From Asanoa siamensis (GTDB lineage Bacteria; Actinomycetota; Actinomycetes; Mycobacteriales; Micromonosporaceae), in NCBI RefSeq assembly GCF_016862555.1, contig NZ_BONE01000042.1:1-64000 (forward strand): a stretch of DNA of 64,000 bases, read 5' to 3'. Each line of letters begins with the position of its first letter. Position 1 is the stretch's first letter. Below are positions 8,296 to 41,287 of the stretch, one piece after another. Position numbers and translations under genes: made by a program. Below the pieces are notes generated by a model. It worked only from the letters and a program-made list of their open reading frames with translations. It searched no databases and had not been told where the DNA came from.

Positions 8296-9999
8296 TCAAG
8301 CGGCGACGAACCCCTCGTCCAACGTGGGGGCGCGCAACTCGTGGCACGACACGTACATGAGTTGGATCTGCGGGTCGTCGAAGTCGATCCGCGGGATGGT
8401 CAGCGGGATGCCGTCCGGGGGCAGCGGCGAGTCCGGCGTCAGGGTGAGCTTGATGCCGTGGAAGCGGCCGACGAACCGGGTCGCGTAGAACGCGACGTCG
8501 CCGCTCACGGTCAGCGAGCCGCTGGTGAACAGCAGCGGGTCACGGCTGCCCTGCGGCACACGCAGCGCGAACGTCTCGACCACCGAGCGGCTCATCGTGA
8601 ACTTCAGGGCCCGCACCTGACCGTCGGCGGTGTCCAGGGGTTGGATGCCGGCCAGGCGCAGGTTCCACATCGTCAGCTTCGTGCCGGTCAGGAGTGACGG
8701 CTTCGCGTTGACGCTGGGGAGGTTCGGGTCCGGGTCGAGCAGCGGTACGACCGGTTGTTCTTCATCAGCCTTACCGGGGTTGCCGGGTTTCGGGCCGCAG
8801 GCGCCCGGCTTCGGCTTGGGCGTCGACGGGGTGGCCCTACCGGGCGCGCCGGGCGTCGGGGTCGCGGTCGGACCGGCGGCGGCCGCGGCGGTCGCGGGCT
8901 CAGGCTCCGGATCGGGATCGGGCTCGTCGGAGTCGCCGCCACCGAAGATGCCGGTGATCCCGTCGATGATGCCGCCGATGATCCCGCCGTCCTTCTCCTC
9001 CTCCTGCGGCTCCTGCTCGGTCGCGGAGGGGGAAGGGGTCGCCGCGGGTTTGCTGGCGGTCTCGGCCGGCTTCGGCGCGGTGACGCCGCCCGATCCGGGA
9101 CAGGACGGCGCCGCATAGGCCGGCGTAGCCACCCGCATCCCGACGACGACGCTGGTCGCCAACACGAGCAGAAACCCGACCACGGCGTAGAACCGCGGCC
9201 CGTCCCGCCGCGGCAACGGCGCGTCCCCCGCCGCGTCGTCCTCCTCGGTGGAACCCACCGATCCCGACTCGCCCGCGCCCGTCGAATCAGCACCGGCTGC
9301 AGCCATCGCCGACGTGCCCGCGTCCGAACGACCCGCGGGGGCCGAGCCACCGAACGAACCCGCGGCCGAATCGGAGCGATCCGCCACGGCCCGATCGCCC
9401 GCCTCAGCTTCGGACCTGGACCGTTCCGCGCCCGGACGATTCGCCCAGGTTGTCGCGGGCGTCGCCGTCGTCGGCGAGTCCGCGGGCGATGGCTCCTCCT
9501 GGTCCGGGTCGTCCAGGCCGGGCACGAGGTGGCCGGTCGATGCAATCTCGCCGGTGTCCGCGTCGGGCTCGTCCGGCGGCGCCGGCTCCGCCGGGGCGGC
9601 GGCCGCGCCGGCGCCCGGTGTCCAGGCGAACACCAGCCCCGCGCCCAGGATGCCGAAGACCAGGCCCAGGAAGAACCCGCCCAGGTTGACGCCGATCAGC
9701 GAGAACACCGCCGTCACCGCGCCCACGATGGCGTAGAACATCCGTTGGGCCGGGGTCCCCCAGGCCAGCGCGCCGCACGCCACCAGGATCGTGGGGATCA
9801 GCCACGACAGGAACCCGGTCGGGCCGAGCTGAAAGCTCAACCCGCCGAGGCTCATCTGCGTGGTCATGAAGATCTCCACGCCGCTGACGATCAGTAGCAG
9901 GCCGCCCCAGAACGGGCGGGTACGACGCCAGCGGCGGAAGTGGCGCCAGGCCCGGCCCGCGAATCCGGGCCGGGCATGGGACGCGCTAGTGGGACTCAT
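8296..9999 (-). CDS. DUF6114 membrane protein with a secreted C-terminal domain
   Basis: The 567-residue product has four parts. Residues about 25-135 hold four membrane helices (FWGGLLLIVSGVEIFMTTQM onward), the DUF6114 core. A Ser/Ala/Glu-rich disordered stretch follows to about 265. A further helix at about 272-292 ends in ATPAYAAPS, which looks like an internal signal sequence. After a Pro/Thr/Glu-rich linker, a C-terminal domain of roughly 160 residues (from LLTGTKLTMWNLRLAG) is beta-rich and probably extracytoplasmic. The start overlaps the end of the DUF6230 gene by 14 bp, so the two are made together. Function is uncharacterised; an envelope role is inferred. Confidence 0.8.
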   Translation of the reverse strand: MSPTSASHARPGFAGRAWRHFRRWRRTRPFWGGLLLIVSGVEIFMTTQMSLGGLSFQLGPTGFLSWLIPTILVACGALAWGTPAQRMFYAIVGAVTAVFSLIGVNLGGFFLGLVFGILGAGLVFAWTPGAGAAAAPAEPAPPDEPDADTGEIASTGHLVPGLDDPDQEEPSPADSPTTATPATTWANRPGAERSRSEAEAGDRAVADRSDSAAGSFGGSAPAGRSDAGTSAMAAAGADSTGAGESGSVGSTEEDDAAGDAPLPRRDGPRFYAVVGFLLVLATSVVVGMRVATPAYAAPSCPGSGGVTAPKPAETASKPAATPSPSATEQEPQEEEKDGGIIGGIIDGITGIFGGGDSDEPDPDPEPEPATAAAAAGPTATPTPGAPGRATPSTPKPKPGACGPKPGNPGKADEEQPVVPLLDPDPNLPSVNAKPSLLTGTKLTMWNLRLAGIQPLDTADGQVRALKFTMSRSVVETFALRVPQGSRDPLLFTSGSLTVSGDVAFYATRFVGRFHGIKLTLTPDSPLPPDGIPLTIPRIDFDDPQIQLMYVSCHELRAPTLDEGFVAA

Positions 10000-10609
10000 C
10001 CTCGAAACATTCCTTGGCGTCGGCGCCGACGTTGACCTTCAGCTTCAGCCCGGTCAGCTTGAACGTGCCCGCCGAGGTGGACCACGCGACCTGCTTGAGG
10101 TCGTTGATGACGACCTTGTCGGCCTGCTGGCCGAACGCGCCCGAGGTGCCCTTCGTGTTGGCCTTGTTCAGGGTCCCGGCGTCGCGGCCGATCTCGATGT
10201 TGGTGAACGTCGCGTCGCCGCGCAGCTCGGTCATGTCGATGAGCAGGTTGTCGGCGCTGGCCGGCTTGTCGCCACCACCGGCGTTGATCGTCAGAACGAT
10301 CGGCATGCCGGGCACCCGTACGGACTGGCACAGGTTGGCCAGCGTCGCGTGGTTGATCCCGGAGACGGCGACCGGGTGCTGACCACCCTTGGCGTCCTCG
10401 ACCATGCTGCCGTACTGGACGAAGCCGTTGCCCACGAGCTTGTCCGCCGAGACCTTGAACGTCTGGCCGGACACGGCGAACGACGCGGCGATGGCCCCGT
10501 TGGCCATGCCGAAGACGATGAATCCGGCCGCCGCTACGGCGGGCAGGATGAGCGCGGCGAACCGCCGCCAGCGGGTCCTTCCCCGCGGTGTTTCAAGGGG
10601 TTCCGACAC
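9986..10609 (-). CDS. DUF6230 family secreted or membrane-anchored protein
   Basis: The 207-residue product has a basic N-terminus and a hydrophobic segment at about 17-42 (RRFAALILPAVAAAGFIVFG), followed by a beta-rich domain beginning ASFAVSGQTFKVSADKL. This matches DUF6230 proteins, which are regularly encoded directly before DUF6114. The segment may act as signal peptide or anchor. The GTG at 10609 has a very strong GGAGGAGG ribosome site. A -35/-10 pair and two identical-pattern inverted repeats lie upstream, pointing to tight repression. Function unknown; the domain may bind a lipid or wall component. Confidence 0.82.
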   Translation of the reverse strand: MSEPLETPRGRTRWRRFAALILPAVAAAGFIVFGMANGAIAASFAVSGQTFKVSADKLVGNGFVQYGSMVEDAKGGQHPVAVSGINHATLANLCQSVRVPGMPIVLTINAGGGDKPASADNLLIDMTELRGDATFTNIEIGRDAGTLNKANTKGTSGAFGQQADKVVINDLKQVAWSTSAGTFKLTGLKLKVNVGADAKECFEDESH

Positions 10610-10625: not shown

Positions 10626-10641
10626 GTTACTCACTGGTAAC
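10626..10641. promoter_or_regulatory. Operator candidate O1 (GTTAC-N6-GTAAC)
   Basis: Perfect 5-bp arms with 6-nt spacer (GTTAC TCACTG GTAAC). It lies between the predicted transcription start and the ribosome site of the DUF6230 gene. TetR-family regulators often bind such TTAC/GTAA dyads. Confidence 0.6.
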
Positions 10642-10654
10642 CAAGAACGGACCG

Positions 10655-10683
10655 ATGGTGCTCCCGTGCGACGCACCTCACAA
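10655..10683 (-). promoter_or_regulatory. Promoter of the DUF6230-DUF6114 operon
   Basis: On the minus strand TTGTGA (10683-10678) is followed by a 17-nt spacer and CACCAT (10660-10655). It lies between the two GTTAC-N6-GTAAC sites. Confidence 0.5.
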
Positions 10684-10689
10684 GGCCTA

Positions 10690-10705
10690 GTTACCGAGCA
10701 GTAAC
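10690..10705. promoter_or_regulatory. Operator candidate O2 (GTTAC-N6-GTAAC)
   Basis: GTTAC CGAGCA GTAAC has the same arms and spacer as the site at 10626-10641, 64 bp away (about six helical turns), and lies just upstream of the predicted -35. Confidence 0.6.
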
Positions 10706-10866
10706 CACGCCCCGGCAACAAGACCACCGACGGCGATCAACAGCCGCGCCGCGAATGCCCACAAAGGCCGACAGACCATGCCGGTGCGCGGACGCTCCGT
10801 GACAATCACATTGATGCATCACGATTTGATAACAGCGACAGTCGCCTACACGCCAACCGTTTGCCT

Positions 10867-39998: not shown

Positions 39999-41273
39999 AT
40001 GCACGAGAGCACGACGATCCTGTTGATCGAGGTCGGGGCGCTGATGTTCCTCCTCGGCCTGCTCGGGCGACTCAGCCGCCGATTCGGCATCTCGCCGATC
40101 CCGCTCTACCTCCTCGCCGGCCTGGCCTTCGGCCACGGTGGACTGTTGCCCCTCAACGCCAGCGAGGAGTTCTTCTCGGTCGGCGCCGAGATCGGCGTGA
40201 TCCTCCTGCTCGTGCTGCTCGGCCTCGAATACTCGGCCGGCGAGCTCGTCGCGAACCTGCGTACGGCGGCCCCGGTGGGCCTGCTCGACGCCGCCCTCAA
40301 CGCGCTGCCCGGCGCGGCGTTCGCCCTGCTGCTGGGCTGGGGCTGGGTGGCCGCGGTGGTACTCGCCGGCGTCACCTGGGTGACCTCCTCGGGCGTGGTC
40401 GCGAAGGTGCTCGCCGACCTCGGCCGGCTCGGCAACCGGGAAACGCCGGTCGTGCTCTCCGTGCTGGTCATGGAAGACCTGGCGATGGCGCTCTACCTGC
40501 CGTTGCTGACCGCGCTGCTGGCCGGCACCGGCCTGCTCGGCGGCGGCGTCGCGCTGGTCGTGGCGGTCGGCACGGTCTCGATCGTGCTGCTGGTCGCGAT
40601 CAGGTTCGGCGGTTGGATCTCCAAGGCCATCTCCGCCCGCGACCCCGAGGCGCTGCTGCTCGGCGTCTTCGGCCTGACGCTGCTGGTCGCCGGCCTCGCC
40701 GCGCAGCTCAAGGTGTCGGCCGCGGTCGGCGCGTTCCTCGTCGGCATCGCGGTCTCCGGCCCGGTCGCGCACCACGCGACCGAACTGCTCTCGCCCCTGC
40801 GCGACATCTTCGCCGCCGTGTTCTTCGTGTTCTTCGGCCTGACCACCAACCCCGCCGACATCCCGCCGGTGCTGGTGCCGGCGATCGGGCTCGCGATCGT
40901 CACGATCGCGACCAAGACCATCACGGGGTACGTCGCGGCGAAGCGCGCCGGCATCGCGGTGCGCGGCCGGTGGCGGGCCGGGTTGTCGCTGACACCACGC
41001 GGTGAGTTCTCGATCGTCATCGCCGGGCTGGCGGTGGCGACACCGGGCATTCCGGCGAAGCTGGGCGCGCTCGCCACCGCGTACGTGTTGATCACGGTTG
41101 TGGTCGGTCCGGTGATCGCGCGGCTGCCGGACTTCGAGTGGTTCAAGGCGCTGCTGCAGCCGCGGCCCGGCGGCGGCGCGGTGCTGGCGACCAGTGACGG
41201 ACCGGGTGTGACCGACCTCACCGACGCGCCAGGTCCGCTAAGTCGGCACACACCGGACGCTACTGGCCAGTAA
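39999..41273 (+). CDS. CPA2-family K+(Na+)/H+ antiporter (KhtU-like)
   Basis: The 424-residue product has 12-13 membrane helices of the KefB/KhtU (CPA2) type. Marks are LGLLGRLSRRFGISPIPLYL, ILLLVLLGLEYSAGEL, TWVTSSGVVAKVL, VLVMEDLAMALYLPLL with the conserved E-D ion site, and SLTPRGEFSIVIAGLA. No cytosolic TrkA-N domain is attached, consistent with the separate regulatory subunit encoded just before. It should exchange K+ or Na+ for H+ across the inner membrane. Confidence 0.92.
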   Translation: MHESTTILLIEVGALMFLLGLLGRLSRRFGISPIPLYLLAGLAFGHGGLLPLNASEEFFSVGAEIGVILLLVLLGLEYSAGELVANLRTAAPVGLLDAALNALPGAAFALLLGWGWVAAVVLAGVTWVTSSGVVAKVLADLGRLGNRETPVVLSVLVMEDLAMALYLPLLTALLAGTGLLGGGVALVVAVGTVSIVLLVAIRFGGWISKAISARDPEALLLGVFGLTLLVAGLAAQLKVSAAVGAFLVGIAVSGPVAHHATELLSPLRDIFAAVFFVFFGLTTNPADIPPVLVPAIGLAIVTIATKTITGYVAAKRAGIAVRGRWRAGLSLTPRGEFSIVIAGLAVATPGIPAKLGALATAYVLITVVVGPVIARLPDFEWFKALLQPRPGGGAVLATSDGPGVTDLTDAPGPLSRHTPDATGQ

Positions 41274-41287
41274 CTGAGCGCGCTCAG
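41274..41287. other. 14-bp perfect palindrome CTGAGCGCGCTCAG
   Basis: The palindrome begins directly after the antiporter TAA. It may be a short terminator stem or an operator for the next gene; no U-tract follows. Confidence 0.35.

Follow-up and report, generated by a model that had tools for sequence, protein, structure and literature searches.

Twin operators before the DUF6230-DUF6114 genes of Asanoa siamensis point to a FasR-like TetR regulator and a predicted fatty-acid beta-oxidation regulon in Mycobacteriales

The TetR-type FadR of Bacillus represses the genes of beta-oxidation and is released by acyl-CoA. FasR of Mycobacterium tuberculosis (Rv3208), also of the TetR type, senses long-chain acyl-CoA and acts as an activator of fatty-acid synthesis through fas-acpS; it has several sites per promoter with TAC-N6-GTA in its target (PMC7382501), and the published 25-bp crystal target of FasR includes this sequence. 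The same TAC-N6-GTA motif was described by McGuire et al. (2012) before Rv3229c, Rv3230c and fas and was linked to palmitate, and the passages on it name no regulator (PMC3388012). KstR, a mycobacterial TetR repressor, controls cholesterol catabolism through a large, unlinked lipid-catabolism regulon marked by a conserved palindrome (PMC1995591, PMC3388012). The sites described here share with the McGuire motif its core, its spacing, its clustering and its association with fatty-acid genes, with the difference that their targets are genes of beta-oxidation. Among open-licence papers, we found no published regulator of their motif, GTTAC-N6-GTAAC.

The locus lies in a 64,000-nucleotide stretch of A. 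siamensis DNA (contig NZ_BONE01000042.1), hereafter called the window, and its features are listed in Table 1. The two genes encode members of families DUF6230 (Pfam PF19741, E=1e-55) and DUF6114 (PF19609, E=3e-31). Structure prediction gave DUF6230 a confident beta domain, with pLDDT mostly >90; a structure search returned no solved relative of this fold (best match E=0.02, prob 0.06), and therefore no function can be read from it.

Table 1. Positions of the genes and upstream elements of the DUF6230-DUF6114 operon in the window
Feature	Coordinates	Strand	Remarks
OP1 operator GTTACTGCTCGGTAAC	10690..10705	-	Upstream of the promoter; kept through Micromonosporaceae loci
OP2 operator GTTACCAGTGAGTAAC	10626..10641	-	Between the presumed transcription start and the ribosome-binding site; found in a subset of genera
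-35-like TTGTGA	10678..10683	-	Conserved 6-8 bp from OP1
-10-like CACCAT	10655..10660	-	Family consensus CANCAT; 17 bp from TTGTGA
Third element GTTATCAAATCGTGAT	10818..10833	-	Direct repeat with 11-bp period, upstream of both operators
DUF6230 gene	9986..10609	-	One membrane helix at the N terminus; outer domain all beta; start codon GTG
DUF6114 gene	8296..9999	-	Reading frame overlaps the DUF6230 end; contains membrane helices and a long low-complexity linker

The initial annotation had described twin GTTAC-N6-GTAAC dyads bracketing a TTGTGA-N17-CACCAT promoter, and all of these elements were recovered at those positions on the minus strand, both dyads with exact arms and 6-bp spacers. When one mismatch was allowed, three dyads were found in the window, compared to a mean of 0.14 in shuffled windows. 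OP1 ends 6 bp before TTGTGA, and OP2 begins at about +8 if transcription is presumed to start some 7 bp after CACCAT; the distance between the starts of the two operators is 64 bp, or approximately 6.1 helical turns. No regulator gene adjoins DUF6230-DUF6114, as had also been noted: within the window, TetR_N matches come no closer than 2691-2825, about 7.8 kb off, and this one has no dyad nearby. The near-match dyad GCTACTGGCCAGTAAC (window 41259-41274) lies partly within the end of a coding region and was set aside as probably due to chance.

Comparison with related genomes, which had been proposed as a check, was made on 80 named DUF6230 loci: 51 from Micromonosporaceae (one of them an unclassified metagenome bin), 8 from Streptomyces or Kitasatospora and 21 from others. 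A dyad was counted when 10 or more of its 12 positions matched and it lay no more than 400 bp away, and the reversed motif served as the control. By this measure the dyad is kept in 48 of the 51 family loci, compared to none for the control, and outside the family it occurs in 1 of the 8 Streptomyces/Kitasatospora loci and in 0 of the 21 others. OP1 is the operator kept in every genus, at a fixed distance from TTGT(G/A); OP1, a gap of 6 to 8 bp, TTGT(G/A) and then CANCAT form a single block in 43 of 50 loci. A search with DNA alone for the operator followed by TTGT gave 74 matches in 201 genomes (at most 4 in the reversed control), and 19 of the 20 matches that were fetched adjoin DUF6230 on its upstream side. 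The promoter proposed in the initial annotation is therefore probably real. Its -10-like element is poor.

A downstream operator is found in 13 of 46 loci and in each of these lies 63 to 67 bp from OP1, approximately six helical turns, in agreement with the helical spacing first remarked on in A. siamensis. Several other loci have, in its place, a second dyad exactly 43 bp upstream, approximately four turns. The OP1-OP2 spacing would be compatible with the looping or cooperative binding suggested in the initial annotation.

The dyads recur well beyond this locus. Exact copies of GTTAC-N6-GTAAC number 6 in the 8.78-Mb A. siamensis genome and 0 in the reversed control. A pyrimidine and a purine flank the inner spacer in all six, and so we adopted GTTACY-N4-RGTAAC as a working consensus. 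This consensus occurs at 66 sites in 21 genomes of the order, with 0 in the control, and 173 of the 200 genomes searched across the order hold at least one copy. For 64 sites we retrieved the neighboring sequence, in which genes were predicted by a simple script based on codon composition; all except one of these sites (63/64) have a gene start no more than 250 bp downstream. Among the recurrent targets, an EtfD-like iron-sulfur protein is the target in 11 genomes and a fadE5-type acyl-CoA dehydrogenase likewise in 11, a secreted GDSL lipase in all six Asanoa genomes, crotonyl-CoA reductase in 4 and another secreted GDSL protein, this one carrying a lectin domain, in 3; thiolases, etfBA and enoyl-CoA hydratase also recur. 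The key assignments in A. siamensis are backed by Pfam and NCBIfam, and some names in other genomes were given by eye. One-mismatch dyads in the A. siamensis genome are only twice as frequent as in the control (41 compared to 20), and many of them were discounted as background; one-mismatch sites do stand before fadAB, etfBA, a thiolase gene and a further gene for an acyl-CoA dehydrogenase.

The first description of this promoter had supposed a wider regulon, perhaps one of envelope genes. The existence of a regulon is borne out by these counts. The envelope proposal holds only in part, as the core consists of genes for fatty-acid beta-oxidation and for lipases. The sequence comparisons thus support the dyads as genuine sites of a conserved beta-oxidation regulon in Mycobacteriales, a regulon that is new, but of a known kind. 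At fadE5 (L017, L238) the dyads are again twinned: the second lies 23 to 25 bp upstream of the first and overlaps the likely -10 region (TAATAA, TAATAC or TATAGT), a layout that fits repression.

Which protein would bind these sites? A profile search gave 110 TetR_N matches in the genome, and comparison of their places with the list of dyads singled out the gene at C34:1134-1739, here called the C34 TetR. A dyad lies in the gap between this gene and a divergent SCP2-domain gene and acyl-CoA dehydrogenase gene. In 39 of 39 family loci, a dyad matching 9 to 11 of 12 positions precedes the TetR gene, with hardly any change in its position; the reversed control reached 9 positions once at these loci. 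The unlinked TetR-type factor that had been postulated therefore has a good candidate, a FasR-like protein whose own gene is predicted to carry an operator in its divergent promoter. In many of the TetR/SCP2 intergenic regions compared (L179-L207), another dyad, weaker than the first, begins 16 bp away from it, and the TetR promoter may therefore hold a pair too. A first candidate, the TetR gene beside fadA2-fabG4-htdX in another genome (G025, L079), was dropped, as its best match in A. siamensis has only 29% identity.

The C34 TetR scores above the curated cut-offs for both PF00440 (62.7 bits compared to 24) and TetR_C_46 (81.5 compared to 27). Its closest solved relative, aligned over the whole length (E=2e-46), is the TetR-like regulator of PDB 3f1b, for which the structure-search result gives no function or operator. 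Profile comparison identified FasR as the closest characterised relative, alike in TetR fold and in sequence (PDB 6o6n, E=2e-14). FasR also has in common with the predicted system TAC-N6-GTA in the target, more than one site per promoter and a part in fatty-acid metabolism. The C34 TetR nonetheless falls well below the cut-off for the FasR equivalog NF053731 (72 bits compared to 330), and sites of its type precede genes of degradation, whereas FasR activates genes of synthesis (PMC7382501). Bacillus FadR offers the repressor logic proposed below, and operators before beta-oxidation genes are a FadR-like trait that the C34-type TetR displays; in sequence it is remote (PDB 3whb, E=6e-8; NF053878, 40 bits compared to a cut-off of 200). 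The match to KstR is weak, 20 bits compared to 280.

A counterpart with 41% identity to the C34 TetR is found in three mycobacterial-type genomes (L238, L239 and L244), where it stands between lpqI and htdX-fabG4-fadA2-fadE5. This is apparently the neighborhood of M. tuberculosis Rv0238, and the counterpart would then correspond to Rv0238. In these genomes dyads occur at fadA2 and, where it is covered, at fadE5. Five TetR regulators, Rv0238 among them, are conserved throughout the mycobacteria examined, and these include M. leprae (PMC4482099). A search of open-licence papers found none on the regulon of Rv0238.

Taking these observations together, we consider it likely that the twin dyads serve as binding sites for a FasR-like TetR protein that represses fatty-acid beta-oxidation genes in Mycobacteriales and is released by acyl-CoA. 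One dimer of the C34 TetR would occupy OP1 (about -50) and a second OP2 (about +8 to +24), and the two would keep the DUF6230-DUF6114 promoter off. Fatty acyl-CoA, the presumed ligand, would free the protein from its operators, and as a result of this release the operon would rise together with fadE5, etfD, etfBA, fadAB and the secreted GDSL lipases. It counts against this model that some members of the order bear the motif and have no close match to a C34-type TetR.

It is possible, if rather doubtful, that the TetR acts at DUF6230 as an activator, with OP1 bringing polymerase to a weak promoter and OP2, where present, serving as a brake. Only OP1 is kept in all genera at its fixed distance from TTGT(G/A), its upstream place is one also used by activators, the -10-like element is poor and the relative FasR is an activator; the place of OP1 and the poor -10-like element both count against the repressor model. 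Since OP1 is the operator kept throughout, activation at DUF6230 retains some probability. The fadE5 sites and OP2, on the other hand, are in positions typical of repression, and most TetR proteins act as repressors.

That a paralogous FasR-type regulator, rather than the C34 TetR, binds the dyads seems improbable to us. The genome does contain a partial FasR match (202 bits, contig C155) and a desaturase-linked TetR on contig C1, and their presence counts against the repressor model as framed, as does the TAC-N6-GTA shared by the dyads with the crystal target of FasR and the motif of McGuire et al. However, the fetched flanks of these two paralogs hold no dyad that matches at 10 positions or more, the C155 flank being short because the gene is at a contig end, whereas the C34-type TetR has one of at least 9 positions in all 39 loci. 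The published targets of FasR are, moreover, fas and acpS, and the published TAC-N6-GTA sites precede desaturase and fas genes, not genes of beta-oxidation. The C1 gene (G000 C1:73777-74355, L328), a FasR-like TetR, lies directly 3' of a fatty-acid desaturase-like gene with no dyad nearby, and its product is possibly a desaturase regulator. Although short palindromes are generally abundant, the idea that these dyads arose by chance or as structural repeats, with no regulatory role, is hardly credible given controls at or near zero, family-wide conservation, fixed spacing and coherent targets.

A third conserved element lies upstream of both operators. It occurs about 115 to 149 bp upstream of OP1 in 45 of the 46 family loci that have the first operator, counted with the pattern GTTAY-NRAANY-GTDAY, which was drawn up after the alignment had shown the element and which held part of the motif fixed. 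The published MtrA consensus of Actinoplanes is GTKAYS-N5-GTKAYS (PMC10714768), and a consensus is also published for Streptomyces MtrA (PMC5650626); the element fits both. It is a putative MtrA box, which would add control of the operon by MtrAB.

Tentatively, and as a reading less likely than not, DUF6230-DUF6114 may be an envelope module for the uptake or handling of acyl lipids, under joint control of the envelope sensor MtrA and of a master beta-oxidation repressor that would correspond to Rv0238 in mycobacteria. Two uncharacterised families would gain a first testable function, and envelope genes of no assigned role would be tied to fat breakdown, with a little-studied TetR-type repressor as their likely controller. 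More broadly, a beta-oxidation regulon is predicted across Mycobacteriales, together with its regulator, operator and target genes. Fatty acids are a central growth substrate for these organisms.

In the Streptomyces and Kitasatospora DUF6230 loci L312, L315, L317 and L321, the family operator is absent and a different sequence, GTAGCTTMCCAGTTAC, is common about 190 to 206 bp upstream of the DUF6230 match; it is perhaps the operator of another regulator.
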